From assembly GCF_001457795.1 (NCBI RefSeq), contig NZ_LN898208.1:1-64000 (forward strand): a DNA stretch of 64,000 nt. The letters run 5' to 3'. Position numbers and translations under genes: made by a program. This document shows positions 27,446 to 58,164 of the stretch, in pieces. The DNA comes from Olsenella massiliensis. GTDB taxonomy: Bacteria; Actinomycetota; Coriobacteriia; Coriobacteriales; Atopobiaceae. Below the pieces are notes generated by a model. The model was not told the DNA's origin. It saw only the letters and a program-made list of their open reading frames with translations, and searched no databases. Positions within the stretch are counted from its first letter, which is position 1; every line of letters begins with the position of its first letter.

Positions 27446-28758
27446 GCATCCTCTCGGCCAGCTTCATGCGCACGTCGCCCCTCGTCGGCCACGTCCACGA
27501 TGGCTTTCCCTATACGATTGGGAATGCCAACCACCAGGGCATTTCCCATGCAGAAGGCCCTCTGTCCGTCCGTCATGCCCGTCGCAGTCCAACCCTTTGG
27601 AAAGCCCTGAAGCCGGTCAAGTTCGTCAGGCACAAGACGCCGGTACCGCCCGTTGACCTTTACCACATGCTTGAAGCGAGAGGGACTCGTACCCCCCTCT
27701 CCCGTCAGAATCGTCCTGCTGGGATTTTCCAGCAAGTCGGGAAACGCCATAGCACCCTCCGAGTACACATACTCATGGCCCGTCAGCTTGTTCTTGCGCG
27801 GAACTCGTTTTGCGCCTTTGAGGTATTCCCAGCGCGGAAGCTGCTCAGAAGGGATGACGTACGATGCGGGGACCTCAGTCTCCGGGACAAGGACGTCCCC
27901 CAAGCTTCCCCTGACTCCGTCATAGCTCTCGCGGGCATGGCAGGTAAGGGCCGTGTCTCCAACCATGACCCCTGCTTCAAGAAATGGGCTGGAGGGAGTC
28001 CTCGCCTCATTGAAGTGTCTCGTCGCCTCAAAGGGGTCGGGTGGTATCGTCACAGGCCGAGGCCCGCCGTCGATGGACATGGGAAACGCCCCCTGCATGA
28101 CTCCGTCTCGCAGGCGGGCGTCAATGTCCCAACTGGGTGCGGCACGTTCCGCAAAGATATAGACGCGTTTCCTGCGCTGAGAGAACCCATAGGCGGCACT
28201 GTTGACTACGCGCCATTCCACGGCATATCCCAGCGATGCCAGACAGCTGAGAATGATGGCGAAATCTCTCCCCCGTCGAGAGGCGGGGCTCTTAAGCAAT
28301 CGATCGACGTTCTCAAAAAGGCACCATCGCGCGTTTGCCGTATCGAGCGCAATCTGGTATTTGAGGAACCTAAAAATATCCCACCAAAGTACGCCCTTCT
28401 TGCCTTCGATACCGCCTGCCTGAGACAGCGAGCGAGCCACCGAATAATCTTGGCACGGAAAGCCGCCAACCACCATGTCAACGGCCGGAATGTCCAGCGC
28501 TCCCGCCTCCGCCTCGTTCATGACAAGATGGATGTCTCTGTTGACAAGCTCCCCCGTCCCAAAGCGTCGAGCATAGCAGCGCGCCGCAAACTGGCGGGCG
28601 TCGCTTCCAGGCTCCCATTGATTTGCCCAAATCGTCTCGAAGGGCCCTGCGGATGGAAGGTTCCACGAGGGATGACCCTCCGCCCGAAGGCCTTCAAGAC
28701 CAAGTCGAAAGCCGCCGACTCCCGCAAAGAGCTCGGCGACGGTAATCCGTTTGTCCAC
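27442..28758 (-). CDS. DNA (cytosine-5) methyltransferase, type II R-M (GATC-type partner predicted)
   Basis: A 438-residue C5 methyltransferase. Motif I is LFAGVGGFRLG (residues 10-20), the catalytic Pro-Cys is GGFPCQDYS with Cys103, motif VI is ENVD (150-153), motif VIII is SQRRKRVYIFAER, and motif IX/X is LDRLQGFPKGW. It lies 92 bases after a Sau3AI-like endonuclease gene, so it most likely protects the cytosine of GATC. The specificity is inferred from the partner, not seen in the target domain. Base composition is lower in GC than the surrounding genes, suggesting acquisition. Confidence 0.94.
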   Translation of the reverse strand: MDKRITVAELFAGVGGFRLGLEGLRAEGHPSWNLPSAGPFETIWANQWEPGSDARQFAARCYARRFGTGELVNRDIHLVMNEAEAGALDIPAVDMVVGGFPCQDYSVARSLSQAGGIEGKKGVLWWDIFRFLKYQIALDTANARWCLFENVDRLLKSPASRRGRDFAIILSCLASLGYAVEWRVVNSAAYGFSQRRKRVYIFAERAAPSWDIDARLRDGVMQGAFPMSIDGGPRPVTIPPDPFEATRHFNEARTPSSPFLEAGVMVGDTALTCHARESYDGVRGSLGDVLVPETEVPASYVIPSEQLPRWEYLKGAKRVPRKNKLTGHEYVYSEGAMAFPDLLENPSRTILTGEGGTSPSRFKHVVKVNGRYRRLVPDELDRLQGFPKGWTATGMTDGQRAFCMGNALVVGIPNRIGKAIVDVADEGRRAHEAGREDA

Positions 28759-28850: not shown

Positions 28851-30197
28851 CTAGAGTTTTTTCAGCTCTTCCGCAAGGTACTTCTTGTTGAGCCAGAAGC
28901 TTTTCTTTGTCACGGGCCTTCCGTGCGGCTGTGGCACCACATCAGAGGCCCTACGCCCATGCGGACGTACATGGCAGCAACGATTCTCGCTGGAGTGCAC
29001 CGAATCCTCCGCCCTTCCCCTCCTGACGTTGTCCCTCATGTGCTCGTAGCAACGTCGCGCCTCATCAAGATCATCGTCGGGCATCTGCCAGAAGGCGACG
29101 TCGGACAAGACGTACGTCTCGCTCGCCCGACTGGTCTGCCGGTACATCACAAACAAGTATCGCTGCTGAAGCTGCTGGTAGAACTCCGAGCTCTCAAAAT
29201 TGGTCGCCTCGAGCTCGCCATAGTCAAATGCCGGAAACGAGACGTCCTCCTTGGGAACGCCAGTCGTCTTGACGCGCATCGTCTTGGGCTTGATGCCTGC
29301 CTTCTCAAACTCCTCGATCTTTGCGTCATCGTCAATGCCCAGGATTCTCTTAGTAACAAGCGCGCAGGCGTTCTTTGCCTTGTGGCCGCGTTTCTCGCAC
29401 AGGCCAAAATGTCTGAAAAGGGCGTCCTCCGTCATGCCGAAGTACGGCTGGAATCGCGCACGAACCACCTGAAGCAAATCAATCTGAGCCTCGCCCGCAA
29501 CGCGCTTAATCCGCTGTCTGCGGCTAAGCAGAGCATTTTCCACAGCTGTCATGTACGAGGCCTTGAGAGCCCACGCACGGGGCTTGGCGGGAATCGCCGA
29601 GAAGGGCTGGGTCGTCCTCTTCCTTGAGTTCGTCGCCTTAGTACAGGCCTCAAGGTACAACGTGTCGGAGCCAGAGATGTCCTCGGCTCGTCCTTCCCTC
29701 ACCTTGCCGACCACTGTCTCCCAATCACGCTTGATCTGAGGTAGGTCATCTTCCGGGATGCCCCATAGGTCAGCAAGTACGAACTCAAAGTCAAGTGGGT
29801 CCTTCTCCTTCTCGTAGAGATAGGCAAGGAGAAGTATGTTGCGGGCCTTGTCAAGAAAGTGGCTATGCTCAAAGTCCTCGTTGACGACCGAGTGGTAATC
29901 AATCATCGAGATGACGAGCCGTTCCTTGGCGGATAGGGACTGGTCCTTCAAGCGCTTCATGGGGGTCGTTTTTAGCTCGATTCCCACCTTCGGAAAGTCG
30001 GGACGAGGGTCGCTGTTGGGCGCATAGAGGAAGTACTTCTCCTCTACGAAGTTGCCCAGCGAGCCGCGACGTGACACAGGTGGCACGATGGTCTCCGCAT
30101 CGACGTGCATCCTCAAGGTCGTGCCCGGAAGACGCTGGGCATATCTCAGGATGGACGCGGCGTCCGCGTCATCGTAGGGAAGCTCGCCCGCAGACAT
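28851..30197 (-). CDS. Sau3AI-like type II restriction endonuclease
   Basis: A 448-residue protein of the Sau3AI/MutH fold. The N-terminal region has SLGNFVEEKYF, then PDFPKVGIELKTTP (D67, E74, K76, the D...ExK catalytic core) and LSAKERLV. MutH/Sau3AI enzymes cut at GATC. It is about 40 residues shorter than Sau3AI itself. AAGGGGG lies 8 bases before the ATG. GC content is visibly lower than in neighbouring genes, and it begins 25 bases after hydE on the same strand, so the R-M system may be inserted at the end of the hyp/hyd operon and read from it. Confidence 0.88.
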   Translation of the reverse strand: MSAGELPYDDADAASILRYAQRLPGTTLRMHVDAETIVPPVSRRGSLGNFVEEKYFLYAPNSDPRPDFPKVGIELKTTPMKRLKDQSLSAKERLVISMIDYHSVVNEDFEHSHFLDKARNILLLAYLYEKEKDPLDFEFVLADLWGIPEDDLPQIKRDWETVVGKVREGRAEDISGSDTLYLEACTKATNSRKRTTQPFSAIPAKPRAWALKASYMTAVENALLSRRQRIKRVAGEAQIDLLQVVRARFQPYFGMTEDALFRHFGLCEKRGHKAKNACALVTKRILGIDDDAKIEEFEKAGIKPKTMRVKTTGVPKEDVSFPAFDYGELEATNFESSEFYQQLQQRYLFVMYRQTSRASETYVLSDVAFWQMPDDDLDEARRCYEHMRDNVRRGRAEDSVHSSENRCCHVRPHGRRASDVVPQPHGRPVTKKSFWLNKKYLAEELKKL

Positions 30198-30222: not shown

Positions 30223-31392
30223 CTAGTCGTTTAAGTGTAGGCCTTCCAGCCTGGGACAGCGGCTTTTGTCGGAGCCCGCAGGCGTCATGGGCACGCGGCG
30301 TGGCGACTCGCCCTGACGCTGCGCCGCGCCTCGTTCGCCCGACGCCCACCGGGCATGGTCGCCGCGGCTCACCACCACCTGATAGCCCACGCTCTCCATG
30401 CGTCGCGCCATGCAGCGACAGCACTCCGCCGCCTCGTCGCCCGTGCAGATCTTGCCGTCGTAGAGCAGGTACTTGCCGCGGACGTCCCGGGGCGAGAGGT
30501 TGGGCATGACCACGTTGGCGCCGGCGAGCATGCCCAGCTCGCGTCCACGGGGATCGATGGTGCCCAGCGCCGTCGTGGCGGGCAGGAGCACCTCGGGCAG
30601 CATGAGCCGAATCACGGCCAGAAGATGGAGCGTGTCGGCGAGGGTCCCGGCCCTCTTGTGCGCGAAGGGCGTGTCGGCGTGCGGGATGAAGGGGCCTATC
30701 CCCACCATGTGCGGCTGGAAGTCCCGCATCCACAGCAGGTCCTCCACCACATGGTCCCAGGTCTGCCACGGCGACCCCACCATGATGCCGCACCCCACCT
30801 GATATCCTATGTCCTTGAGGTCCCTCAGGCAGCGCTTGCGCCCCTCGACAGACAGCTCGCTCGGATGCAGCAGGGCGTAGTGGGCGGGGTTGGACGTCTC
30901 CTGCCGCAGCAGGTAGCGGTCGGCGCCGGCGTCAAAGAAGGCCTCGTAGCTCGAGCGCGGGCGCTCGCCTATGGACAGGGTCACGGCGCAGTCGGGGTGC
31001 GCGGCGCGTATGGAGCGGACGAGGTCGCACACGAGCTCGTCCCCAAAGGCCGCGTCCTCCCCACCCTGGAGCACGAAGGTCCTGAATCCAAGGTCATATC
31101 CCGTGTCGCAGCAGGCGAGGATACGCTCGCTGCTCAGACGATAGCGCTGGGCGCGGCCGTTGCTGCGCCTGAGGCCGCAGTAGAGGCAGTCGTTGCGGCA
31201 GTAGCTGGTGAACTCCACCAGACCGCGCAGATACACGTCCTTGCCGTAGACCGCCTCGCGCACGGCGCGCGCCTGGGCATAGAGGAGCTCCTCCTCTGAG
31301 GACGTGAGAGAGGCGAGAAGCTCCGCCAGCGCGGCGGCGTCCAGGGTCCCCCGTTCCCGCAGCTGGGCTATGCGTCGCTCGTTCGCGGTCAT
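30223..31392 (-). CDS. hydE: [FeFe]-hydrogenase maturation radical SAM protein HydE
   Basis: A 389-residue radical SAM enzyme. The SAM cluster motif CxxxCxxC is at C65, C69, C72 (YCRNDCLYC). A second set, C316-x7-C324-x2-C327, matches the accessory cluster of Thermotoga HydE. HydE acts on the HydG-made Fe(CO)2(CN)-cysteine complex in the known H-cluster pathway. Here hydG is absent, while hypCDEF and nitrogenase-like genes share the operon. The gene overlaps hydF by four bases and is last in the ten-gene run. About 40 C-terminal residues after the core are extra and charged. Confidence 0.95.
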   Translation of the reverse strand: MTANERRIAQLRERGTLDAAALAELLASLTSSEEELLYAQARAVREAVYGKDVYLRGLVEFTSYCRNDCLYCGLRRSNGRAQRYRLSSERILACCDTGYDLGFRTFVLQGGEDAAFGDELVCDLVRSIRAAHPDCAVTLSIGERPRSSYEAFFDAGADRYLLRQETSNPAHYALLHPSELSVEGRKRCLRDLKDIGYQVGCGIMVGSPWQTWDHVVEDLLWMRDFQPHMVGIGPFIPHADTPFAHKRAGTLADTLHLLAVIRLMLPEVLLPATTALGTIDPRGRELGMLAGANVVMPNLSPRDVRGKYLLYDGKICTGDEAAECCRCMARRMESVGYQVVVSRGDHARWASGERGAAQRQGESPRRVPMTPAGSDKSRCPRLEGLHLND

Positions 31393-32669
31393 GGGCGTCC
31401 CCTCACGATGGTGCCATCCCCTCGCCCGCCAGGCTTCGGACCGTCAGGCTCTCGACCGTCCGCCTCCAGCAGGCGCACGAGGTCGGGAAAGAGCGAGAGG
31501 CTCCTGGCGAGGATGCCCTTCATGTGCGCGATGGCCGTGCCGTAGTTGGTCAGGGGCACCCCCTGCGCGGCACAGGCGGCCGCGCGCCGCGCCAGCTCGC
31601 GCCCGTTGAGCATGCAGCCACCGCAGTGCAGGACGAGGCGGTAGGGCGTGAGGTCGTCAGGAAAGCCGTGGCCGGCCGTGGCGTCCACCATGAGCCTCTT
31701 GCCCGTGCGCTCCCGGAGCCAGGCGGGAATCTTCACCGTGCCTATGTCGCCGCACTGCCGATGGTGCGTGCATCCCTCGGCGACGAGCACGCGATCGCCG
31801 TCGCGCAGTCGGTCGATGGCGGCGACGCCCCGGACGGCACCGGCCAGCAGCCCCTTGCGACGGGCCATGAGGATGGAGAAGGACGTGAGGGGCACGTCCG
31901 CGGGGACGATGGCCGCCACCTGAGAAAACGCCTGACTGTCGGTGATGACCAGGGCAGGGCGCGCGTGGGGCGGCATGCGCCCCAGCACCACGGCCAGCTC
32001 GCTGTCACGCACCACCATCGACACGGCGCCGGCTTCGAGCACGTCCCGTATCGTCATCTGCTCGGGCAGGATGAGGCGACCCTTGGGCGCGGCCTTGTCA
32101 AGGGGGATCACGAGCACCACGAGGTCGCCCGGGGCTATGAGGTCGCGCACGAGGGGCCGCTCCCGGGCGCCGGTGGAGCCGAGACGTGCGATGCGCTCCC
32201 TCAGCGCGCCCACGCCCTCCCCCGTGAGGCCGCTCACGTACACCCTCGCGTCGTCATCGGCGGGCACGCGTGGCAGGAGGTCTCGCTTGGTGAGCGCGAC
32301 GAGGTAGGGCACGTCATGCGAGCGGAAGAGCTCCTGAAGCTGGCGCTCGCAGGCGCCCATGCCCGCGGTGGCGTCCACCACGAGCACCGCCACGTCCGTC
32401 TGGTCCAGGATACGACGGGCCGCGCGCACGCGCCTCTCGCCCAAGGGACCCTCGTCGTCAAAGCCCGGCGTGTCGATGATGACGACCGGTCCCAGCGGCA
32501 GGATCTCCATGGACTTGCGCACGGGGTCGGTGGTGGTGCCAAGCTTTGGGGAGACCACGGACAAATCCTGGCCCGTCACGGCGTTGACCAGACTCGACTT
32601 GCCGGCGTTCCTGCGCCCGAAGAAGCCGATGTGAACCCGCTCGGCAGATGGGGCGTCATTGAGTCCCAT
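31389..32669 (-). CDS. hydF: [FeFe]-hydrogenase maturation GTPase/scaffold HydF
   Basis: A 426-residue HydF. The GTPase domain has P-loop GRRNAGKSS (18-26), DTPGF and the TKRD specificity motif. The C-terminal cluster domain has C300-x-H302 and then H348-C349-x-x-C352, the CxH...HCxxC signature that binds the [4Fe-4S] cluster carrying the diiron precursor. In the known pathway HydF holds the [2Fe] unit and delivers it to apo-hydrogenase HydA. It lies four bases after the split NifK-like gene and overlaps hydE. No hydA or hydG is in the window. Confidence 0.96.
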   Translation of the reverse strand: MGLNDAPSAERVHIGFFGRRNAGKSSLVNAVTGQDLSVVSPKLGTTTDPVRKSMEILPLGPVVIIDTPGFDDEGPLGERRVRAARRILDQTDVAVLVVDATAGMGACERQLQELFRSHDVPYLVALTKRDLLPRVPADDDARVYVSGLTGEGVGALRERIARLGSTGARERPLVRDLIAPGDLVVLVIPLDKAAPKGRLILPEQMTIRDVLEAGAVSMVVRDSELAVVLGRMPPHARPALVITDSQAFSQVAAIVPADVPLTSFSILMARRKGLLAGAVRGVAAIDRLRDGDRVLVAEGCTHHRQCGDIGTVKIPAWLRERTGKRLMVDATAGHGFPDDLTPYRLVLHCGGCMLNGRELARRAAACAAQGVPLTNYGTAIAHMKGILARSLSLFPDLVRLLEADGREPDGPKPGGRGDGTIVRGRP

Positions 32670-32673
32670 GTCG

Positions 32674-33909
32674 TCACGCCCCCTTTCGCATGGCGTCGCC
32701 GACGAGCGCCATGGGGTCGACGCTCATGAGGTCGGGTATCTCGCGCAGCCACTGTCGGCCCGAGAGCGCCAGGTGCGGCAGGCGGCAGAGGCGCTGGTCG
32801 CGCGCGCAGACGTGGGAGAAAAACGGGTCGCCCACGACGATTGCCGCCTCCCGAAGGGCGCGTGCGACGCCCTCCTCGCCCCTGACGCAGACGTCGCCCA
32901 GCCGCGGGTCCACAAGGCGGCGCGCGTCCTCGACGGGGCTCACGAGACGCGCCGTCACGTCCCTGCCCCCCAGCGCCGCCGCCATGGATCCCATCGCGAC
33001 GGGCTCGCCCACCAGGGCGAGCGCGGCGGAAGCCGGAGTGCGAGGTGCCTCGATGCCCCCCTTGAGCAGGTCTTTGTCACGGCTCTGCACAAGACGCAGC
33101 TCAAGATAGGCATTACGGCTCCTGCGCTCGTCACGGGCGCGATCGAGCGCCCGGGCGAGCGCGGGCCCAAAGCCCCTCACGGGCAGCCCCACCACATAGG
33201 GCTGCCCCAGCCTGCGCTCAAGCTCGCGGGCGGCGTCAAGGCCGCAGGCCGACACCACCAGGTTCACGTCCGCCTGGGAGGCGCGCATGACGTCATCCAG
33301 CGTGCAGCCAAGCGACCAGAGTGACGTGAGCGCAAAGCCCTCGCCCTCCAGCCAGCCCACGAGGCTCTCCCTCGACGTGGGAGCCGCGAAGTCGAGGGGC
33401 GTCATCCCCAGCACGTTGACGCGGGCGCGCGGCGGGCGCGCGGCACGGGTTCCCTCGCGCGCGGCGGTCACGAACGCGCGCGCGAGAAGCGCAAAGGCCA
33501 GGCCCGCCCCGCGCACGTAGTCATGCATGCCGTTCGTGGGCACGTGACGGCAGACGACGCCCGTGCGGGCCTCCACCAGCCGCGCCAGCGCCGCAAAGTC
33601 CGTCCCCACCTGGAAGGGCACGGGCGAGCCCGCCAGGACCACGAAGCGCGGTCGCGTCTGTCCCACGGCCTCGACCACGTCGGCGACGAGCCGCTCGTCG
33701 TTGCCCATGAGGGCGTCCGCGTGGCGCAGGCCCGAGACGAAGACGAGGCTGTCCTGGTCATACCAGCGCAGCTCGTCATGGGTGTTGTACGTGGAGTTAC
33801 AGCCCGAGGGGTCGTGGATGACCACCATGCCGCCCAGCTCGAAGAGGGCCGAGCAGGCGCCCGAGACGTCGCCTGCGTAGACGGGCAGGATGCGCTGTGA
33901 CTGTCTCAT
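32674..33909 (-). CDS. Nitrogenase component 1-type protein, NifK-like (separate subunit)
   Basis: A 411-residue protein of the nitrogenase/oxidoreductase component 1 fold. It resembles the C-terminal half of the 837-residue fusion encoded upstream: shared features are the SGC loop (C37), VSGLRHADALMGNDERL and SPVPFQVGTD (95-104). In true NifK the latter carries a cluster cysteine where this protein has proline, so only the first P-cluster-type cysteine is kept. It probably pairs with the 452-residue NifD-like protein encoded 10 bases upstream, giving a second D/K pair. The start at 33909 has GGGAGGGAG upstream; the frame runs further 5' but would then overlap the upstream gene. Function is unknown. 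Confidence 0.85.
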   Translation of the reverse strand: MRQSQRILPVYAGDVSGACSALFELGGMVVIHDPSGCNSTYNTHDELRWYDQDSLVFVSGLRHADALMGNDERLVADVVEAVGQTRPRFVVLAGSPVPFQVGTDFAALARLVEARTGVVCRHVPTNGMHDYVRGAGLAFALLARAFVTAAREGTRAARPPRARVNVLGMTPLDFAAPTSRESLVGWLEGEGFALTSLWSLGCTLDDVMRASQADVNLVVSACGLDAARELERRLGQPYVVGLPVRGFGPALARALDRARDERRSRNAYLELRLVQSRDKDLLKGGIEAPRTPASAALALVGEPVAMGSMAAALGGRDVTARLVSPVEDARRLVDPRLGDVCVRGEEGVARALREAAIVVGDPFFSHVCARDQRLCRLPHLALSGRQWLREIPDLMSVDPMALVGDAMRKGA

Positions 33910-33919
33910 GTCTCCCTCC

Positions 33920-35278
33920 CTACCACGGCATCTGACAGGCGCACGGCAGTCCCAGCCCCTTGCGCGGCACGAGCGAGCGAACGTCGACGCTGGCTGCCCA
34001 GGCCCTCTCCATGAGCCCGACAAGGTGCAGGATGGCCTCATAGCCCCAGTGGCCGTCCGTCTCGATGACGTTGACCACGTGCGAGGTCCCCACGAACCAG
34101 GCCGCCTTGGGGCCGACGGCAAGCCAGCCATCCCCGTCGGTGCGGGGCCGCTGGCGCAGCGTGGGGTGAACGGTGCTCCAAAGCTCAAGGTCAGGGGCCT
34201 GGGAGCGAAGCCACGCCAGGGCGCCGCGCTCCTCGTCGCTCACAACGTCCAGATACACGCGACGCACGTCCAACCCATGCTCCAGCAGCAGGCGCGCGAG
34301 CTCGAGCGGGTGGTTGACCGCCAGGGCGTCGATCGCCACGGGCACGCCCGCAAGCCGGCGTGCGAGAGCGTCCAGGGCGGCGTCGCAGGCGCGGCGCTGC
34401 TCGCGCGTATTCGGCGTCGGGACGCCCAGCGCCTGGGCCAGACGCCCCAGGGAGGCGTCGATGGCCTCGTAGTCCAGCGCGGGGGGCAGGTACAGGTACG
34501 GCCTTTCCAGCCGGCGCGCCACCTTGGCAAGGCCCCACGCGGCCACGGCCGTCCTCGTCACCAGAAGCGAGCTGGCCCCCAGCGACAGATAGTCGTCAAG
34601 GCGCGCGCAGTCATGGAGCTGCATGAGCCTGCGGCCCGAGGAGCGCACGAGGCGGGCCAGGTCGGAGTCATCGGGCAGGCGCAGGTCGTCAGAGAGCACC
34701 CCCACCAGGTTCTCGTCTTGAGGCACAGGGTCAAGGAGCTCGGCCATGGCACGGCGCTGCCGCTGCTCGGGCGTGATGCCCGTCTTCTGCATGATGGGGT
34801 CCATCCAGCAGCGCAGGAAGCGCACGCGCGGAAAGCGCCGCTCTAGCTCCGCGTACACGTAGCGCACGTCGGTCCCCACAAAGTGGTGCAGACACACCAG
34901 AAACACCATCACGGCACGAGGGTGGTAGGTGAGCTTACGCAGCACGTCGCTCACGCCCTCGATCGTGACGGACTCGAGGTTGTCCCGCAGCAGGTCCGCC
35001 TCCTCGATGACGACGGACGAGAGGCGCTCTGACGCCCCCATCTCGGCCGCCGTGAGCACGACGCCCCTGAGGCAGTTGTCCGCGCACACGTAGATCTGAT
35101 GACACTCGGGCATGAGCATGCCCGTGTGGACGATGTTCCAGTTCTCGTGCACGGGCGCGTTGAACTCCAGCACGTTGGGAACGGGACGGGGAAAGGACGC
35201 GTCGGCCGCCCGCACCCACGCGGGCGTCCTTTGGTCGCCCGCCTCAGGGGCCAAGGAGGGACGCAGCCGTCTGAGCAT
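33920..35278 (-). CDS. Nitrogenase component 1-type protein, NifD-like (separate subunit)
   Basis: A 452-residue component 1-fold protein. The N-terminal segment has APVHENWNIVHTG, then cysteines C59, C65 and C69 (PECHQIYVCADNC) and C129 in FLVCLHHFVGTD, which corresponds to the second P-cluster-type cysteine of NifD. It aligns by eye with the N-terminal half of the 837-residue fusion (GCC at 74-75, C135 in [12 protein letters not shown]). GGGAGG precedes the ATG at 35278. It sits between hypE and its NifK-like partner. It is not NifD: the genome context lacks nif assembly genes. Its substrate is unknown; see the findings for the Fe-CO-CN cofactor hypothesis. Confidence 0.85.
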   Translation of the reverse strand: MLRRLRPSLAPEAGDQRTPAWVRAADASFPRPVPNVLEFNAPVHENWNIVHTGMLMPECHQIYVCADNCLRGVVLTAAEMGASERLSSVVIEEADLLRDNLESVTIEGVSDVLRKLTYHPRAVMVFLVCLHHFVGTDVRYVYAELERRFPRVRFLRCWMDPIMQKTGITPEQRQRRAMAELLDPVPQDENLVGVLSDDLRLPDDSDLARLVRSSGRRLMQLHDCARLDDYLSLGASSLLVTRTAVAAWGLAKVARRLERPYLYLPPALDYEAIDASLGRLAQALGVPTPNTREQRRACDAALDALARRLAGVPVAIDALAVNHPLELARLLLEHGLDVRRVYLDVVSDEERGALAWLRSQAPDLELWSTVHPTLRQRPRTDGDGWLAVGPKAAWFVGTSHVVNVIETDGHWGYEAILHLVGLMERAWAASVDVRSLVPRKGLGLPCACQMPW

Positions 35279-35289
35279 GGCGCACCTCC

Positions 35290-36294
35290 CTAGCAGATGC
35301 GGGGCAGCAGCTCGTTGCCGGGCTCCGGCAGGATGGTCTGCGTGCCTATCTCGGTCTGCATGACCACGAGGCCGGGGTCCTCTCGCGTGACGCTGCCGAT
35401 GACGCAGGACCCCTCGGCGTGCGTGCTCGCGCGCAGGGCGGCAAGGACCGCGTCCACGGCGTCCGGCGGGCACACCACCACCAGGCGTCCCTCGCAGGCA
35501 AGGTAGAGCGGCTCGAGGCCCAGCATGCCGCACACGCCGGCCACCTCGGGCGCCACCGGGACCTTGGTGGCGTCCAGGCGCACGCCCACGCCGCTCTGGT
35601 GCGCGATCTCGTAGAGCACCGTCCCCACGCCGCCGCGCGTGGCGTCGCGGATGGTGTGGATGTCGTCGCAGGCGTCAAGGGCCGAGCGGATGGCGGCGGC
35701 AAGCGGGGCGCAGTCGCTCGTCACGTCCGCCTCGATGCCAAAGTCGTCGCGCGAGAGCAGGATGGCACAGCCATGGCGCCCCACGTCGCCCGTCACGATG
35801 ACGGCGTCGCCCGGCCTCGCCGCCCCGCCGCGGGGACGCGCGCCCCTTCCCAGGACGCCCACGCCCGTCGTGGTGATGAACACGCCGTCGACCTGGCCCC
35901 GGCCCGCCACCTTGGTGTCGCCGGCGACCACGCTCACGCCCGCCTCCCGCGCGGCGGCGGCCATGGAGGCCACGATCGTCTCGAGTTGGGCCAGCGGATA
36001 GCCCTCCTCGATCTGGAAGGCGCAGGTCAGATACAGCGGCGTGGCGCCCATGCAGGCCACGTCGTTGACGGTGCCGCAGACGGCGAGCTTGCCCACGTCG
36101 CCGCCCGGGAAGAACGCCGGCGACACGATGAAGCCGTCGGTGGAGAGCGCCAGGCGGCCGGCCGGCACGTCCACGACGGCGGCGTCGTCCTCCGTGAGAA
36201 GCGGGTTGGCCAGGTGCGCCTTGAAGACGCGCTCGATGAGCTCGGAGGTCTGCTTGCCGCCCGCGCCCTGGGCCAAGGTCACAACGTCATTCAT
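35290..36294 (-). CDS. hypE: Hydrogenase maturation protein HypE
   Basis: A 334-residue AIR-synthase/PurM-like protein. It ends in PRIC, the flexible tail whose cysteine takes the carbamoyl group from HypF and is dehydrated to thiocyanate, the source of the CN ligands. The ATP-binding segments (DDAAVVD, STDGFIVSPAFFPGGDVGK, GDTKV) are intact. It starts 3 bases after hypD. In the known pathway it feeds CN to the iron on HypC-HypD. No [NiFe]-hydrogenase gene is nearby; its neighbours are nitrogenase-like and Hyd genes. Confidence 0.97.
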   Translation of the reverse strand: MNDVVTLAQGAGGKQTSELIERVFKAHLANPLLTEDDAAVVDVPAGRLALSTDGFIVSPAFFPGGDVGKLAVCGTVNDVACMGATPLYLTCAFQIEEGYPLAQLETIVASMAAAAREAGVSVVAGDTKVAGRGQVDGVFITTTGVGVLGRGARPRGGAARPGDAVIVTGDVGRHGCAILLSRDDFGIEADVTSDCAPLAAAIRSALDACDDIHTIRDATRGGVGTVLYEIAHQSGVGVRLDATKVPVAPEVAGVCGMLGLEPLYLACEGRLVVVCPPDAVDAVLAALRASTHAEGSCVIGSVTREDPGLVVMQTEIGTQTILPEPGNELLPRIC

Positions 36295-36297
36295 GAG

Positions 36298-37416
36298 CTA
36301 TCCTTCCTCGTCGCCCTCGGGGGCGTGAGCATGCGCGGGCAGGTCGCGAGCTGCCCTGGGAACGTCGGCGCCGTAGAGGTAATAGGCCGAGCAGGCGCCC
36401 TCGCTTGAGACCATGCAGGCGCCCACGGGGTGCTCCGGCGTGCAGGCGCGGCCAAAGACGGGGCACGCGCCGGGGGCGCAGCGTCCCTGCAGTACCTCGC
36501 CGCAGCGGCAGGCCGGGTTCTCGCGGCCCTCCGAGGGGGCGACGTCAAACTTGACGCGGGCGTCCCAGGCCGCATGGCGCTCGCGCAGGCGCAGGCCCGA
36601 CCCCTCGATGGTGCCGATGCCCCGCCAGCGGGCGTCGCAGGGCTCCATCATCTCGTCCACGATGCGACGGGCCGCGGGCGACCCCTCGGGCCGCACCACG
36701 CGCGGGTAGCAGTTGACGAAGAACGGCTCCCCCTCGGCGAACCTGGTGACGCCCACGGCGAGCGCCGTGACGAGCTCGCGCGCCGTGAAGCCGGCGACCA
36801 CGCCGCTCACGCCCGCGCGGGCCAAATCCTCGCAGACCGCGGTGCCCGTGACGGCGTGGACGTGGCCGGGATACAAGAAGAGGTCCGTGGACCCCCGCAT
36901 GGCCTCATAGGCCCCAGGCATGGTCTTGTTGGCCGTGAGCAGCGAGAAGTTGCAGACGTCCTGCTCCTTGGCCTGACGAACGGCGAGGCAGCACGAGGGC
37001 GTGGTGGTCTCGAAGCCCACGGAGAGGAAGACGACCTCCTCCTTGGGGTGCGCGGCGGCGTAGGCCTGCGCGTCCTGGGGCGACCAGACCACCCGCACGC
37101 GCGCGCCTCTCGCCCGGGCGTCCGCCAGAGACAGCCTGCTGCCGGGCACGCGCACGAGGTCCCCGAAGGTGGCGATCGTGCAGCCGCGCTCAAGGGCCAG
37201 GAAGAGCGCCTCGTCTATGAAGCCGACCGGCGTCACGCAGACGGGGCATCCCGGACCCGAGATGAGCTCCACCTGGGCGGGAAGCAGGCGGCGGATGCCC
37301 TGCCGAAAGATCTCGTGGGTGTGCGTTCCGCAGACCTCCATGATGCGCACGCGTGGCCCGTCATAGCCCTCCAAAGCCGCGCGAGCGACAGATCCGGCCG
37401 CCGACGTGCCGCTCAC
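36298..37416 (-). CDS. hypD: Hydrogenase maturation protein HypD
   Basis: A 372-residue Fe-S protein on which the Fe(CN)2CO unit is assembled together with HypC. The conserved motifs CGTHTHEIF (C29) and GPGCPVCVTP (C57, C60) and the four-cysteine C-terminal cluster region (CRCGEVLQGRC ... GACPVFGRAC) are intact, so the protein should be functional. It overlaps hypC by four bases and is followed by hypE. Confidence 0.97.
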   Translation of the reverse strand: MSGTSAAGSVARAALEGYDGPRVRIMEVCGTHTHEIFRQGIRRLLPAQVELISGPGCPVCVTPVGFIDEALFLALERGCTIATFGDLVRVPGSRLSLADARARGARVRVVWSPQDAQAYAAAHPKEEVVFLSVGFETTTPSCCLAVRQAKEQDVCNFSLLTANKTMPGAYEAMRGSTDLFLYPGHVHAVTGTAVCEDLARAGVSGVVAGFTARELVTALAVGVTRFAEGEPFFVNCYPRVVRPEGSPAARRIVDEMMEPCDARWRGIGTIEGSGLRLRERHAAWDARVKFDVAPSEGRENPACRCGEVLQGRCAPGACPVFGRACTPEHPVGACMVSSEGACSAYYLYGADVPRAARDLPAHAHAPEGDEEG

Positions 37417-37625
37417 AACAGCTCCCTCTCGAGGTCGCCGGTCTCCGCGTCGTCATCGTCCGTGATGCGGGCGATGGCGGAGCCGGCGTGCACCATCACG
37501 TACTCACCCGGCTCGAGCCCCTCAAGAAGCTGGGCGGACACCTCGCGGCGGGCGCCCGTCGCCTCGACGAGGGCGGTGCCTGCCGCAGAAACCCTGATCA
37601 CCCGTGCGGGCAGTCCTACGCACAT
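37413..37625 (-). CDS. hypC: Hydrogenase maturation chaperone HypC
   Basis: A 70-residue HypC starting MCVGLPARV. Cys2, the residue that binds iron in the HypC-HypD complex, is present. The start at 37625 is fixed by this motif and an AAGGGACC site; the frame is open further upstream. Its tail is acidic (DDDDAE). In [NiFe] maturation HypC carries the Fe(CN)2CO unit to the large subunit; here the receiving protein is unknown. Confidence 0.95.
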   Translation of the reverse strand: MCVGLPARVIRVSAAGTALVEATGARREVSAQLLEGLEPGEYVMVHAGSAIARITDDDDAETGDLERELL

Positions 37626-37692
37626 GTCTTGGTCCCTTCTCATCCGGCGCCGCGCACGCACGTCGGCGCTACCTGCGTTTGCCGTTTCCCGC

Positions 37693-40167
37693 CTAGAAGG
37701 ACGTGTCAAAAAACGACCGCCCGTCCTGCAGCGCCTGGGCCGCGACCACCGCCTGCCCCAGGCAGATGCCGCCGTCGTTGGGCGGTATGAGGCGATGGGT
37801 GAGCACTCGCAGGCCCGCCGCCTCAAGGTCGTCCTTTACCAGGGCCAGCAGGAGCGTGTTTTGAAAGCACCCCCCGCTCAGGGCCACGGTGGTGAGCTTG
37901 CGCCGTCGGGCGACCCACCGCGCCGCCCCAGCCACCTGCCGCGCGAGGCCCACGTGGAAGGCGTAGGCCAGGCGCCCCGCGTCGTCTCCCGCCAGTCGGC
38001 GTGCGACGAGCCAGCCCACGAGGCGGTCGGTGGGAAGCGTCATGAGCCCCTCGTCGCCGAGCGCCCAGGCGGCGGGCGCGCCCGGCATCGGCAGTCCGAC
38101 GGCAGAGACGGGCGAGCCTTGGTCGGCTGCCCAGCGCTCGGCGCGGTGCTGGAGCAGCACGGCGGACTCCCCCTCGAAGCTCGACGTGCGGCTGACGCCC
38201 AGAAGGGCGCTCACGGCGTCAAAGAGCCTGCCCGCGGAGGTCGAGGTCACGGCATTGACGCGCCGGCGCGTCATGGCCAGCTGCGCGCGCGCCTCCTGGG
38301 GCGAGCAGAGCCTCAGGCGTCGGACGAGCGAGAGCGTCTCGTCCGACGTATCGTCCGCCAGGCCCGCAAGCCCCCCCAGCAGCGACACGGCGACGCGCCA
38401 GCCCTCCAGCGCGGCGGCGTCTCCCCCCGCCTGACAGAAGGGCGCGATGCGCCCCACGCGCTCAAAGCCATGGAAGTCGCAGACCATGAGCTCCCCGCCC
38501 CAGACGCTGCCGTCCTCGCCGTAGCCCGTGCCGTCAAACGAGACGCCCACGACGGGCTCGGTGACGTCGTTCTCGGCCATGCACGAGACGACGTGCGCAA
38601 AGTGATGCTGCACCCGCACGAGGGGGACGCCCGCGTCCCGGGCCATCCTCTGTGCGACGCTCGTCGCGTGGTAGCGAGGATGCAGGTCGCAGGCGACGAC
38701 CTCGGGGGCCACCTCAAGCAGCGCCTCCATCCGCCCCACGGACGCCTCGAGCGCGTGCACGGCGCGCAGGTCGGCAAGGTCGCCCACATAGGACGAGGGA
38801 TAGAAGAGGCCGCCCGTGCCGACGCAGAACGTGTTCTTGAGCTCGCCGCCCACGGCGAGGACGCGCACGTTGGAGGTGTCCTCGTCCGTCCCTGTTCGCC
38901 CGTCGTGCCGAAACGGCGTCGAGAGCACCACGGGCAGCGGCGCGTAGCCGCGCGAGCGCCGCACCATGTAGGGGCGCCCCTCAAACCAGTCCATGACGGA
39001 GTCGTCGGCGCGCGTGCGTATCGTCCGGTCATGCGAGAGCACGAGGTCCGCGATGCCCCCCAGCTGCTCGCGGACGTCGTCATCATCCTTGCAGATGGGG
39101 GCGCCCGACACGTTCGCGCTGGTCATGACCAGGACGTCGGGCGTCATGACGTCATCGTCATAGGCAAAGAGCAGCAGCTGCACGGGCGCGTACGGGAGCA
39201 TGACGCCCAGGCTGGGGGCCTGGGGCGCCACGCAGGGCGCCACCCGCCCGCCCGCGCGGCGCCGCAGCAGCAGGATGGGCCTCTGGTGGCCCGCGAGGAC
39301 CTCGCGCTGGGCGTCCGAGAGCTCGCACTCGCGACGCACGACCCCCTCGTCGGCCATCATCACGGCAAGGGGCTTGCTCGGCCGGCGCTTGCGCCGGCGC
39401 AGCCGGCTCACCGCGTCCTCGTTCGTGGCGTCGCAGCACAGATGGAAGCCCCCGATGCCCTTGACGGCCACGATGCCGCCCGCAGCCAGGCAGCGGCGCG
39501 TGGCCGTGATGGCCTCGGCGCCCCGCTCGTCGCGGTCCAGAAGGTAGACCGCAGGACCGCAGTCGTTGCAGCAGACCGGCTGGGCGTCATAGCGGCGGGA
39601 GGCGGGGTCATGGTATTCGCGCGCGCAGTCGGGACAGAGGGAAAACGCCCGCATGCTCGTGCGCTCGCGGTCGTACGGGAGCGCGTCCAGGATGGTCAGG
39701 CGCGGTCCGCAGCAGGTGCAGTTGATGAAGGGGTGCAGGTAGCGACGGTTCGTGGGGTCAAAGAGCTCGCGCCTGCAGTCGTCGCAAATGGCGATGTCGG
39801 GCGAGACGAAGACCTCGCCCGCGGTCTTCTCGCTCACGACGATCCTGAAGCCCTCGAGGCGCCCGACCTGTGCGGTGGGCACCTCCTGGGACTCCAGGCG
39901 GACGATGTCGGCGCGTCGCGGCGGCTCCGTGCGCACGAGACGCTCGAACTCCCGCACCTGGTCGGCCGTCCCCTGAGCGTAGATCTCGACGTAGGGGCCC
40001 TTGTTGCAGACGCTGCCGCAGACGCCCGCAGTCGCGGCGTGACGGTCCACCGTGGGCCTGAAGCCCACGCCCTGGACGATGCCGTGGACGCGCAGGCGGT
40101 GGGTCACCGGCCGCGCGCCGTCATGCCCCGCCTCCGTCGCGGCGCCTGTGAGCATCCTCTCGCTCAT
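37693..40167 (-). CDS. hypF: Carbamoyltransferase HypF
   Basis: An 824-residue multi-domain enzyme that makes the carbamoyl group for CN synthesis from carbamoyl phosphate and ATP. The N-terminal acylphosphatase domain has GVGFRPTV. Two zinc-finger CxxC pairs follow (CDDC ... CTCC, CPDC ... CNDC), then a YrdC-like domain and a Kae1-like domain with LHPRYHATSVAQ and HHFAHVVSC. It is somewhat longer than the usual 750-780 residues. Its ATG overlaps the stop of the fused nitrogenase-like gene. A 67-base gap precedes hypC. Confidence 0.97.
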   Translation of the reverse strand: MSERMLTGAATEAGHDGARPVTHRLRVHGIVQGVGFRPTVDRHAATAGVCGSVCNKGPYVEIYAQGTADQVREFERLVRTEPPRRADIVRLESQEVPTAQVGRLEGFRIVVSEKTAGEVFVSPDIAICDDCRRELFDPTNRRYLHPFINCTCCGPRLTILDALPYDRERTSMRAFSLCPDCAREYHDPASRRYDAQPVCCNDCGPAVYLLDRDERGAEAITATRRCLAAGGIVAVKGIGGFHLCCDATNEDAVSRLRRRKRRPSKPLAVMMADEGVVRRECELSDAQREVLAGHQRPILLLRRRAGGRVAPCVAPQAPSLGVMLPYAPVQLLLFAYDDDVMTPDVLVMTSANVSGAPICKDDDDVREQLGGIADLVLSHDRTIRTRADDSVMDWFEGRPYMVRRSRGYAPLPVVLSTPFRHDGRTGTDEDTSNVRVLAVGGELKNTFCVGTGGLFYPSSYVGDLADLRAVHALEASVGRMEALLEVAPEVVACDLHPRYHATSVAQRMARDAGVPLVRVQHHFAHVVSCMAENDVTEPVVGVSFDGTGYGEDGSVWGGELMVCDFHGFERVGRIAPFCQAGGDAAALEGWRVAVSLLGGLAGLADDTSDETLSLVRRLRLCSPQEARAQLAMTRRRVNAVTSTSAGRLFDAVSALLGVSRTSSFEGESAVLLQHRAERWAADQGSPVSAVGLPMPGAPAAWALGDEGLMTLPTDRLVGWLVARRLAGDDAGRLAYAFHVGLARQVAGAARWVARRRKLTTVALSGGCFQNTLLLALVKDDLEAAGLRVLTHRLIPPNDGGICLGQAVVAAQALQDGRSFFDTSF

Positions 40168-42677
40168 GTCCCCGACACCGCCGCGAGCCGCGTCAGGTGC
40201 CCTGACAGGGCAAAGTGGGTCTCGTCGAAGAAGTCGCCGTCGTAGCCGTCGAGCAGGGGCCTGAGCACGGCGTCGGCGAGCACCACGTCGGCGCCCATGT
40301 CATCGACCGCGCGGCGAAGGTCCGCCTCCTCGCGCAGCGCGACGTCGCCAGGTCGCGTGACCTCGTCGGGTCGCATGAAGAAGCTCGCGCAGCGCACGTC
40401 GGCGCAGCCGCGAGACAAGAGCTCGCGGCGCAGGGCGTCGGCGGCCACCTGCTGATGCACCACCAGAACGCGCCTCCCCTCCCAGCCGATGGGGGGAATG
40501 AGGGCGCTCACCAGGGGAAAGCCAATGTCATAGGGCGTGCCGAAGCGCTCCTTGAGGAGCTTTGCCGCCGCGAGGCCCGAGGGTGCCACCACCAGGTTGC
40601 GCTCGGCGGCACCCGCGCTCATGACGTCGTCAAGCGAGGCGCCCATACCAAAGCAGGTCACGCGCCGCCAGCCCGCCGCGCAGAGCGCCCCCGCGAGCGC
40701 CTGTGCCGCGCCGGGGTCCGAGAGGTCCATGGGCGTGGCGCCCAGGACGCCCAGCCGTCCGGGCTCCCTGGCGGGACGCTCCCCGCGATCCGCGCGGATG
40801 CCGTCGGCAAAGGTCAGGAAGAGCTCGCAATAGGCGCGCTCGGCCCCCACGTCGTAGAGGCGCATGCCGTTGGCGTCGACGGCCACGGCGGGCAGGCCCG
40901 TGGCTCGCTCGCTCATGCGGCGCAGGGCGGTGAGGTCCGTGCCTATGACCGCCGGGACGGGCGTGCCCACGAGGGCGACAAAGCGAGCGTCGATCTTGCC
41001 CGCGGCGGCGGCGAGCTTCTTCACGAGCAGGTCGTCCCTGCCCATGATGGCGTCCATGTCGCGCAGTCCGGCACTGAAGACGGCATCCGCGCCCGCAAAC
41101 CAGCGCGGCTCGTCAAAGCCGCAGACGTTGCCGGTGCAGCCGCCCGCGTCGACGATGACCGAGAGGCCCCCCAGGCCGAAGAGCACCGAGACGGCGCCGG
41201 ACTGGTCCGGCGCGAAGGGGGTGAGCACCCGGCGCAGCCCCTTGACCTCAAGAGAGGGCTGTCGCAGGACAGTCCGCCCCGCGGCCCTGACCGGACGCGG
41301 GCCCGGGCGGGACGACCGACCGGCCGCAAGGTCCTGCGCGCGCTCGTCTCTCAGCGAGATGGCGCCGGGGCGCTCGGCCTTTCCCGACAGCACGCGCTCG
41401 AGGGACGCAAAGAGGCCCATGACCGCCGTGTAGCCAAAGGGCTGGACGTCGTCGTTCCAGGCCAGGTTGGGGCGGTCGGGATGATAGTGACCGGCGTCGC
41501 GGCCGACGGTCAGCGTGACTGCGGCGTCGGGCTCGTAGCCGATCATCGTGGGCTCGAGGTTGGAGTAGACGCGCGTCTGGGGGGAGAGCTCGGCCAGGCG
41601 GGCAAGATGGCTGAAGCGCTCGGGCGCGAGGGTCCCAAAGACCTCCGCCACCCCAAACCCGTAGCGCACGAGGGCGAGCGCCAGCTCGAAGGGGTCGGCG
41701 TTGCAGCACTCGCCCACCGCGAAGACCTCGCGCGCGTGGCGGGCCCCAAACGCGCGCACGGCGTCTTGGGCCCTCTCGCGCCAGGGCGCCTGATCGAGGC
41801 GCACGCCCAGGGCGCTCCCGAGCGCCTCGTACTGGCTGTGGATGCGGTCAACCTGATAGAGGCGCGAGAGCTCGATCCAGGGGATGCCCAGCCGCTCGCT
41901 CAGGTCCTGGGCCGCGGGCGCGGCCTCGGGGTTGAGCACCAGGTTGAAGTTGGCGCGGGCCATGTCCCGAAAGTCCTCGAACGTCGCGCAGGAGCCCACC
42001 TCGCGCACGTGGCGCACCCCGGCGCGCTCGAGGAGTCCCTTGAGGTCGGAGTCCTGCTCCACCGGCGCAAAGTGACCCAGGAGGTTGCAGGAGCGCGGGT
42101 CCCTGCGGGCGGGCTCCAGCAGCGAGTAGATGGACTGACGCACGTTGACCATGGGCGGCCGGCGGCCCTCGCGGGTGAGCGCGTACATGTAGCAGGGACG
42201 CACGCGAACGCCGGCGAGGTCCTCCGCCGCGCGGCAGACGCGCTCCATGTCCGTGCCCAGAAGGGCGTCCACGCAGGTGATGCACACCATGACCACGGAC
42301 GGCGGGTCGGGCAGGCTTTCGCAGACGGCCTTGACCGCCCGGGGTATGCGCGCCAGATGGCGGGCGGTGATGAGGTCCGTCTCGCTCATGAGCAGGTAGA
42401 AGAAGCGATGCTCATAGCCCGGCAGCTCCGACACGGAGCTGGTGTTGCGGCCGCAGCAGCCGGGCGCCACGACGAGCATAACCGAGCCGGGAACGGAGAG
42501 GCCGGCCCGTTTGACGCCAAAGCCCTCGGCGCCCGGCGAGTTGAAGGCGAGGGCCGCCGGGGAGCTGTAGATGAGATGCGTGGACGAGACGAGCTCGGCG
42601 GGGATGTCGTCGGGGCCGCGCCGCCAGAGCTCCGCGGCCGTGTACGAGGCGACACGGGCGCGCGGTCGCAGGCTCAT
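40164..42677 (-). CDS. Fused NifD-like/NifK-like nitrogenase component 1 protein
   Basis: An 837-residue protein made of two component 1-type halves. The N-half (about 1-445) is NifD-like with PGCC at 74-75 and [12 protein letters not shown] (C132, C135). The C-half (about 481-837) is NifK-like with GGCTGNVC (C514, C519) and [10 protein letters not shown], where the usual second cysteine is proline. An Arg/Pro-rich linker (about 450-475) joins them. The halves correspond to the separate NifD-like and NifK-like genes downstream, so the operon encodes two D/K pairs, one fused. Such fusions occur in a few nitrogenase-like groups. It overlaps the NifH-like gene upstream and hypF downstream by four bases each. 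Catalyst or scaffold cannot be told. Confidence 0.88.
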
Positions 42678-43456
42678 AGGAGCGCCTCGCGAGAACGCGC
42701 CGGGGCGTCGTCGGCGAGGAGCCTTTGGGCCAGGTCGATGAAGACCCGGGAGACGGGCAGGCTCGCGTCGCCCTCGATGACGGTCTTGCCCTCGTCCTCG
42801 AAGCGGTTGACGTCGTCGGAGCGGGGAATGTCGCCTACCACCTCCAGGCCGGCCAAGACGGCGAAGTCCCTCACCTTCCGCTCCTCGTCCGGGACGTTGC
42901 GCCGGTTGAGGATGATGCCGCCCAGCTGGGCGTAGCCGCGCTCCTCGAAGTTGCGCACGGCGGTGCTGATGTTGCCGGCAGCGTAGAGGGCCATCTTCTC
43001 GCCGCTGGTCACGATGAGGACCTTCTGGGCGTAGCCCTCGCGGATGGGGGCCGCAAACCCGCCGCAGACGACGTCGCCCAGAACGTCAAAGAGGACCACG
43101 TCGGGCTCGTAGGTCTCAAAGAGCCGCAGCTCCTCGAGGAGGTTGAACGTGGCGATGATGCCGCGGCCGGCGCAGCCCAGGCCCGGCGTGGGCCCGCCCG
43201 TCTCGATGCAGAGCACCCCGCCGAAGCCCACGCGCGATATGTCCGCGAGGGACGGGGGCTCCTCGTCCTCGCCACGCAGATAGTCCATCACGGGACGCAG
43301 GGCCTTGCCCCCGAGGAGGTTGATCGTGGAGTCCGCCTTGGGGTCACAGCCGATCTGGATGGTGCGCCGGCCCAGCGTCGCGAACGCCGCCGCCAGGTTG
43401 CTGGTGACGGTGGACTTGCCGATGCCGCCCTTGCCATAGACCGCGATTCTGAGCAT
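42674..43456 (-). CDS. NifH/BchL-like ATP-dependent reductase (nitrogenase iron protein-like)
   Basis: A 260-residue P-loop ATPase of the NifH superfamily. The nucleotide site is GKGGIGKST (8-16), switch I is CDPKADST (37-44), and both [4Fe-4S] ligands are present: C95 in GLGCAGRG and C131 in DVVCGG. It should form a homodimer bridging one cluster and pass electrons to a component 1 partner with ATP hydrolysis. As the only H-type protein here, it probably serves both D/K pairs. The start at 43456 has GAGGGG upstream and fits the family; the frame extends further 5'. First gene of the ten-gene operon. Confidence 0.93.
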
Positions 43457-57909: not shown

Positions 57910-58164
57910 ATGCCCTCCAGGGTCGCACTCATCGCCATCATCGTCGAGAACCCCGCGTCCGTCCCGACGCTCAACGAGCTTCTGCACGAGCATGCCGACT
58001 ACGTCATCGGACGCATGGGACTTCCCTACCACGCGCGCGGCGTCAATGTCATCAGCGTCGCCGTGGACGCGCCCCAGGACGTTATCGCGGGGCTCGCAGG
58101 CGCCATCGGCGCCCTCGACGGCGTCAGCGCCAAGACCGCCTACTCCAACGTCTATGGAGCATAG
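57910..58164 (+). CDS. TM1266-family putative iron-only hydrogenase system regulator
   Basis: An 84-residue ACT/NikR-like protein. The pattern RVALIAIIVEN ... LNELLHEHADYVIGRMGLPY ... ISVAVDAPQDVIAGLAGAIGALDGVSAKT matches the TM1266 family, which often sits beside hydE, hydF and hydG in other genomes. Here it lies about 14 kb from hydEF. It supports an [FeFe] hydrogenase in this genome; whether it binds DNA is unproven. GAAGGA lies before the ATG. Confidence 0.85.
   Translation: MPSRVALIAIIVENPASVPTLNELLHEHADYVIGRMGLPYHARGVNVISVAVDAPQDVIAGLAGAIGALDGVSAKTAYSNVYGA

Follow-up and report, generated by a model that had tools for sequence, protein, structure and literature searches.

[FeFe]-hydrogenase maturation is described as a single route in which HydE, HydG and HydF provide the H-cluster of HydA; the known substrate of HydE is an Fe(CO)2(CN)-cysteine synthon, with two carbon monoxide (CO) and one cyanide (CN) ligand, and HydF delivers the [2Fe] subcluster. 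We know of no described biological source of the CO and CN of the H-cluster other than HydG. For the [NiFe]-hydrogenases the work is done by the HypABCDEF system, in which HypF and HypE synthesize cyanide, and HypC with HypD holds an Fe(CN)2CO unit, with one CO and two CN per iron. The nitrogenase-like D/K proteins with NifH-type reductases, among them NifDK, NifEN, dark-operative protochlorophyllide oxidoreductase (DPOR, BchLNB) and CfbCD, form a further group, and nitrogenase proteins are known to reduce CO2 to CO. That HydG provides both of these ligands is established (see also PMC3105041). Here we describe an operon of Olsenella massiliensis, located in a window of 64,000 nucleotides (the whole stretch analysed, contig NZ_LN898208.1), in which Hyp, D/K, NifH-like and Hyd genes stand together, and we argue that its Hyp, D/K and NifH-like module quite probably replaces HydG in H-cluster maturation.

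The operon, the missing HydG and the HydA client

The genes are transcribed from the minus strand in the order NifH-like reductase (H1), fused D1-K1, HypF, HypC, HypD, HypE, D2, K2, HydF and HydE (positions 30223-43456; Table 1). Neighbours overlap or sit short gaps apart, so that the ten genes probably form a single operon, in which the Fe(CN)2CO makers of [NiFe]-hydrogenase are flanked by two D/K pairs and two of the three [FeFe]-hydrogenase maturases are added. As compared with the HydE-HydG-HydF system, the orthologues of HydE and HydF, the HydA client and a regulator of the TM1266 family in the neighbourhood are shared, but HydG is missing and Hyp proteins and two nitrogenase-like pairs with NifH stand in its place. 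As compared with the HypABCDEF system, HypC, HypD, HypE and HypF score above their NCBIfam cut-offs and keep their key motifs (CGTH and GPGCPVC of HypD in 79 of 79 relatives, the C-terminal PRIC of HypE in 75 of 78), but neither HypA nor HypB was found among the operon genes (the rest of the genome was not searched for them), and a [NiFe] client is usually lacking. HypD of cluster genomes also scores lower (E ~1e-125) than HypD of the other genomes of the class (~1e-150).

The source genome (1.82 Mb, 97% complete) has HydE, HydF and one HydA, at C13:797699, which carries the H-cluster motifs TSCCP, GPCSAK and EGMACPGGC. HydG was not found in it, the sole match to TIGR03955 being the HydE gene at 53 bits against a cut-off of 312, nor was it found in any of the 36 other cluster genomes searched. 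The possibility that HydG is there in a hidden or divergent form was considered and rejected, since the sub-threshold TIGR03955 matches are either HydE-sized (42-85 bits) or ThiH-like by score and extent (145-196 bits). The source genome also has no [NiFe] large subunit (PF00374), and HypC, HypD, HypE and HypF are therefore without their ordinary client there. As a separate observation, a HydG/ThiH-like radical S-adenosylmethionine (SAM) gene (170-176 bits) with a single in-frame TGA occurs in seven genomes (G189, G239, G294, G264, G088, G183 and G248), six of genus g3 and one of another family; it may encode a selenoprotein, have a frameshift that these genomes share or be a pseudogene.

We then looked at the window's family (f1) within a sample of the class (298 genomes, with HydF in 47 and HydG in 30). 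HydE and HydF occur together in 24 genomes of the family, 14 of which have the D/K cluster and no HydG and 10 of which have HydG and no cluster, whereas none has both or neither. Such an exclusive split would have a probability of 5e-7 if the genomes were independent; as they are not, the trees weigh more than this figure. Within the family, HypD occurs in every one of the 14 cluster genomes and nowhere else, HydA is present in all 14, and the gene order of the module is conserved in them; PF00374 was found in none of the 27 genomes of the family searched, the 14 included.

In the HydE and HydF trees, the label of cluster or HydG needs four changes, at least three of which are forced by well-supported branches. 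Both trees join a cluster genome (G292) and a HydG genome (G182) as sisters (100/96 for HydE and 100/100 for HydF), and another HydG genome (G172) is placed among the cluster rows. The same HydE and HydF lineages therefore work with either partner. The invariant residues of both proteins are nearly identical with the cluster and with HydG, and this likeness suggests that HydE probably receives the same kind of substrate from both. Cluster-specific residues that would betray a changed substrate were sought and rejected, as only HydE 240 and 255 (mildly) and HydF 330 differ, none of them diagnostic.

To look further afield, genome contigs were scanned with a profile of D1; this gave 416 relatives, and the best 80 of these 416, examined as loci, belong to Olsenella and other Atopobiaceae, Lachnospiraceae (Blautia massiliensis, B. 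schinkii, B. luti, Coprococcus comes, Eubacterium ramulus, Anaerobutyricum hallii and Faecalicatena contorta), Oscillospiraceae and Pseudoramibacter. In most loci of sufficient length the order is H-D1-K1-HypF-C-D-E-(regulator)-(H2)-D2-K2-(HydF)-(HydE), where H2 is a second NifH, and in Lachnospiraceae NK3A20 a HydA gene comes directly after HydE of the cluster. No HydG over the cut-off was found in 24 further cluster genomes, mostly Bacillota, and a HydE-type match was found in 23 of them. HydA is present in 43 of 44 more distant cluster genomes; PF00374 is absent in 36 of these, and the other eight have short matches of ~50 bits. With Olsenella profusa F0195, which is in both samples (G170 = G298), counted once, 56 of 57 distinct cluster genomes have HydA and 49 have no [NiFe] large-subunit match, so that the Hyp set is usually without another client. 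The HydA motifs are intact in cluster carriers, with L1 and L3 seen in all loci examined and L2 in all but three, where the search pattern missed it. Blautia schinkii has been described as growing autotrophically on H2+CO2 (PMC11008154, PMC8875654, PMC6776011), and in the genome of B. schinkii MSK.6.26 (L160/G310) the cluster is accompanied by two HydA matches and HydE, with neither HydG nor a [NiFe] match. We take this species as strong but indirect living evidence for the module.

Table 1. Genes of the operon, in order of transcription, and the separate regulator gene, with positions in the window
Feature	Position	Strand	Profile matches
NifH-like ATP-dependent reductase (H1), 260 aa	42674..43456	-	PF00142 282 bits; TIGR01287 297 bits (cut-off 394)
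Fused D1-K1 nitrogenase-like protein, 837 aa	40164..42677	-	PF00148 twice, 156 bits
HypF, carbamoyltransferase (cyanide precursor)	37693..40167	-	TIGR00143 695 bits (cut-off 466)
HypC, chaperone of the Fe(CN)2CO unit, 70 aa, Met-Cys N-terminus	37413..37625	-	TIGR00074 58.5 bits (cut-off 48)
HypD, Fe(CN)2CO assembly	36298..37416	-	TIGR00075 360 bits (cut-off 193)
HypE, cyanide donor, C-terminal PRIC	35290..36294	-	TIGR02124 402 bits (cut-off 252)
D2 nitrogenase-like protein, 452 aa, ATG 35278	33920..35278	-	PF00148 49 bits
K2 nitrogenase-like protein, 411 aa, ATG 33909	32674..33909	-	PF00148 72 bits
HydF, H-cluster maturation GTPase and scaffold	31389..32669	-	TIGR03918 505 bits (cut-off 326); PF18133, PF18128
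HydE, radical SAM H-cluster maturase	30223..31392	-	TIGR03956 548 bits (cut-off 255)
TM1266-family iron-only hydrogenase system putative regulator	57910..58161	+	TIGR03959 103 bits (cut-off 61)

The HypC, HypD, HypE, HypF, HydE and HydF assignments rest on scores above the cut-offs of NCBIfam equivalog or subfamily models. For the D, K and H proteins only broad nitrogenase families match, with the cut-offs for NifH, NifD, NifK, NifE, NifN, BchN/B and Cfb far out of reach; H1, below the cut-off of TIGR01287, is therefore not NifH proper. Its Walker A sequence GKGGIGKS is kept in 130 of 134 aligned relatives, and both of its cluster-cysteine motifs are conserved. The regulator gene lies apart from the operon in the window. 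In many relatives a TM1266-family protein of ~90 aa (TIGR03959) lies inside the cluster, between HypE and H2/D2, and the family also adjoins HydE-HydG-HydF operons.

The nitrogenase-like D/K pairs

PF00148 (Oxidored_nitro) scores above its cut-off at four places genome-wide, and these are exactly the four D/K units. An earlier note on this stretch had read them as two paralogous pairs, one fused and one split, and this was confirmed: by pairwise BLAST, the D1 half of the fused protein is 24% identical to D2 over 400 aa (E 3e-24) and the K1 half is 43% identical to K2 over 242 aa (E 6e-55), and profile-profile comparison gives E-values of 4.5e-33 for D1-D2 and 1.8e-57 for K1-K2. Judged by these alignments, the homology within both couples is far above chance; the excerpt of the fused protein in the earlier note had dropped one A, and the resemblance itself holds. 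Structure predictions also give a D/K fold for D2 and for the halves of the fused protein. The model of D2 (predicted local distance difference test, pLDDT, 89) matches the nitrogenase component 1 folds of NifEN, NifK and VnfK in the PDB, with E down to 2.7e-15 and a template modelling score of ~0.6. The fused protein (pLDDT 81) comes closest, among PDB entries, to the fused NifEN 9i0g (E 8e-28), and its halves, taken singly, match chains of NifEN/NifK; the orientation of the halves relative to each other in NifEN was not reproduced (root-mean-square deviation 27 Å), and we therefore claim only that each half is predicted to have the nitrogenase D/K fold.

Several cysteines are invariant, or nearly so, in these proteins. 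D1 Cys74, 75, 132 and 135 are kept in 92 of 92 relatives and K1 Cys44 and 49 in 84 of 84; D2 keeps Cys65 in 70 of 72 relatives and Cys69 and Cys129 in 72 of 72, and K2 keeps Cys37 in 58 of 58. An alignment mixing fused and single D1/K1 proteins misplaced K1 rows on the D1 half and gave way to one of fused rows only. D1 Cys75 and D2 Cys69, D1 Cys135 and D2 Cys129, and the K cysteine fall, in the alignment, on cluster cysteines of NifE and NifN, which we take to be NifE Cys62 and Cys124 and NifN Cys44. The remaining cluster cysteine of NifE has no counterpart in either D, and another cysteine lies close by in each. The pattern is compatible with an interface [4Fe-4S] cluster. Neither D1 nor D2 has an equivalent of Cys275 or His442, the iron-molybdenum (FeMo) cofactor ligands of NifD, Asn/Thr and Leu/Val occupying the aligned positions, and the extra P-cluster cysteines of NifK are absent from K1 and K2 in the alignment. 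The division into catalyst and scaffold after the model of NifDK and NifEN, suggested in the earlier note, is therefore not supported; because the cluster cysteines are kept and the cofactor Cys and His have no counterpart, the pattern would suit a one-cluster reductase or scaffold and not a FeMo-cofactor catalyst. NifEN and NifDK with NifH thus share with the module the D/K fold, the reductase and, in NifE and NifN, the aligned cysteines, but the module proteins lack the cofactor Cys and His, belong to a separate clade and score at most 18 bits for NifD and NifK (cut-off 654 for NifD), 98 for NifE (cut-off 505) and 26 for NifN (cut-off 327). DPOR and CfbCD resemble the module in having a single-cluster D/K partner with a NifH-like ATPase and give weak profile matches; however, the scores are far below the cut-offs and no tetrapyrrole pathway genes lie near the module, whose neighbours are Hyp and Hyd genes.

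A joint tree with Nif and Bch proteins placed both pairs in one nitrogenase-like clade and not in unrelated ones. One group (100/100), apart from NifDE, NifKN and Bch, unites D1 and D2 with the D proteins of single-pair H-D-K systems, and K1, K2 and the single-pair K proteins form another (100/100), in which the branching order among the K groups is unresolved. BchN and BchB fall outside the D/K clade of the module, on long branches that make their position unsafe. D2 joins the single-pair D proteins of other bacteria in a group that leaves out D1 (99/95), so that the two pairs parted before the module arose and need not be an in-place duplicate. Of the origin proposed earlier, duplication followed by fusion or fission, the second part stands, as D1 and K1 are fused in 41 relatives and split in 47, and the first is too simple. 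Likewise, the one NifH-like reductase said to be shared by both pairs is indeed alone in this operon, but a second NifH lies directly before D2 in three members of the family and in 41 of 60 other loci showing D2; each pair, therefore, probably once had its own reductase.

The single-pair systems were seen in other Coriobacteriia (L093-L112, e.g. L104:8919-12351 and L106:9267-12707) and on a plasmid of Treponema saccharophilum (L253:11235-14408), where the genes lie beside an iron-type ABC transporter. They share the D and K clades of the module but have no Hyp or Hyd genes beside them. The loci L093-L112 had been candidates for the same system in other families of the order; they were rejected for the lack of these genes, which points to a different use of the H-D-K clade. 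In one genome (G243, L062:13310-14792), the D1 frame is split into two overlapping frames, by a frameshift or an assembly error.

A proposed route and its rivals

With the gene set, the missing HydG, the exclusive exchange of partners and the intact HydA in view, we infer that the module substitutes for HydG, and that the textbook route of H-cluster maturation probably has a second one beside it. In the manner known from [NiFe]-hydrogenase, HypF and HypE would make cyanide from carbamoyl phosphate, and HypC and HypD would place it on iron as the Fe(CN)2CO unit. The two D/K pairs, driven by one or more NifH-like ATPase reductases, would take over the rest of the work of HydG and yield an iron-CO-CN synthon accepted by HydE; HydE and HydF would then complete the [2Fe] subcluster and pass it to HydA. 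On the evidence, the end product is an ordinary H-cluster. The earlier note had spoken of another cofactor, which is most likely the [2Fe] subcluster of [FeFe]-hydrogenase; the link was missed because HydF and HydE (30223-32669) lie outside the span 32674-42677 that it considered, which also leaves out the NifH gene (42674-43456) and contains HypF, HypC, HypD and HypE, unmentioned there.

As to the chemistry, we prefer, tentatively, a scheme in which the D/K pairs reduce CO2 at low potential and so provide the CO that is lacking: the HypCD unit brings one CO and two CN per iron, and the substrate of HydE has two CO and one CN. In wider terms, the pairs might be an iron-carbonyl synthase, with the CO ligands of the H-cluster created by NifH-driven CO2 reduction or by rearrangement of the Hyp-made Fe-CN unit, a possibility that we hold just as loosely. 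Work reviewed in PMC9431212 reports that HydF made with HydE and without HydG activated HydA to ~1%, and that free CO or CN doubled this value; HydE and HydF can therefore in principle use ligands that do not come from HydG.

Several points weigh against a replacement of HydG by the module. The need for two D/K pairs is left unexplained, and one cluster genome, a 1.5-Mb assembly, has no HydA match. Some Bacillota (Blautia, C. comes) have HydE away from the cluster, and no HydF turned up in the stretches read, whole genomes not having been searched for it. Growth of B. schinkii on H2 was reported for the type strain and not for MSK.6.26. Finally, three genomes of the family (G084, L257; G183, L258; G239, L259) have HydA and HydF without HydE, HydG or the cluster, which may be a remnant or a third arrangement.

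We also weighed other explanations for the operon. The D/K pairs could be a novel nitrogenase-like enzyme whose own cofactor is built by the Hyp proteins and HydE/HydF, with HydA as a bystander, which comes near the idea of the earlier note. The operon layout would suit such an enzyme, as would the large uncharacterised H-D-K clade to which both pairs belong and which elsewhere has no Hyp or Hyd genes; however, the FeMo-cofactor ligands are missing from both D proteins, HydA would be left without a CO/CN source in 56 of the 57 cluster genomes, and neither the exclusive exchange with HydG nor the TM1266 regulator would be explained, and we consider it improbable. Marginally less probable still is that HypC, HypD, HypE and HypF alone replace HydG as the CO/CN source, next to D/K pairs engaged in some unrelated reduction. 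The Hyp proteins are indeed known makers of Fe-bound CN and CO, and HypD tracks the absence of HydG exactly within the family, but both D/K pairs flank the hyp genes in the same order in two phyla and, by the known chemistry, HypCD would give an excess of CN and insufficient CO for a synthon of the HydE type.

It seems very unlikely that HydA is inactive, or matured with stray CO and CN, and that the operon has nothing to do with it: HydE and HydF are in the operon or conserved, the HydA motifs are intact and growth on H2+CO2 is reported for a species that carries the cluster (PMC11008154), even if the slight activation without HydG cited in PMC9431212 and the three genomes of the family that keep HydA and HydF without HydE or HydG speak in its favor. 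That the Hyp genes serve a [NiFe]-hydrogenase, their only known job, has in its support the short PF00374 matches of ~50 bits in eight of the 44 distant cluster genomes, but it is refuted for most carriers by the absence of PF00374 from 14 of 14 cluster genomes of the family and 36 of 44 others, and by the lack of HypA and HypB in the operon, so that we give it next to no weight.

Novelty, meaning and neighbouring genes

The families that make up the module are known, and the pathway as a whole appears undescribed as far as we searched: open-access papers on the absence of HydG, on Hyp genes with HydE and HydF, on nitrogenase-like genes with hydrogenase and on H2 in the carriers held no description of it, an absence which is not proof. 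If the module does provide a second route beside HydG, it would join three metallocofactor worlds (NiFe, FeFe and nitrogenase) in one pathway, offer a new way to make hydrogenases and, given its presence in the cultured gut genera Blautia, Coprococcus, Eubacterium, Anaerobutyricum, Olsenella and Pseudoramibacter, alter the prediction of H2-cycling capacity from genomes. Were the D/K pairs to make CO, hydrogenase assembly would have its first enzymes of the nitrogenase family, and some of the genes tallied as 'nitrogenase' in surveys of the gut and the rumen would in fact encode hydrogenase maturases. Rumen N2 fixation is negligible. In 23% of rumen genomes, genes of the nifH type have been scored as nitrogenase (PMC6776011), and such genes are widely encoded in gut metagenomes and hardly transcribed (PMC12578642). 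The module offers a testable explanation of this puzzle, by a link between surveys and cluster that we suppose.

Just downstream of HydE, an open reading frame on the minus strand (27442-28758) resembles a DNA cytosine-methyltransferase, with a GGFPCQDYS motif spotted by eye, and its neighbour (28851-30197, minus strand) may be its restriction enzyme.

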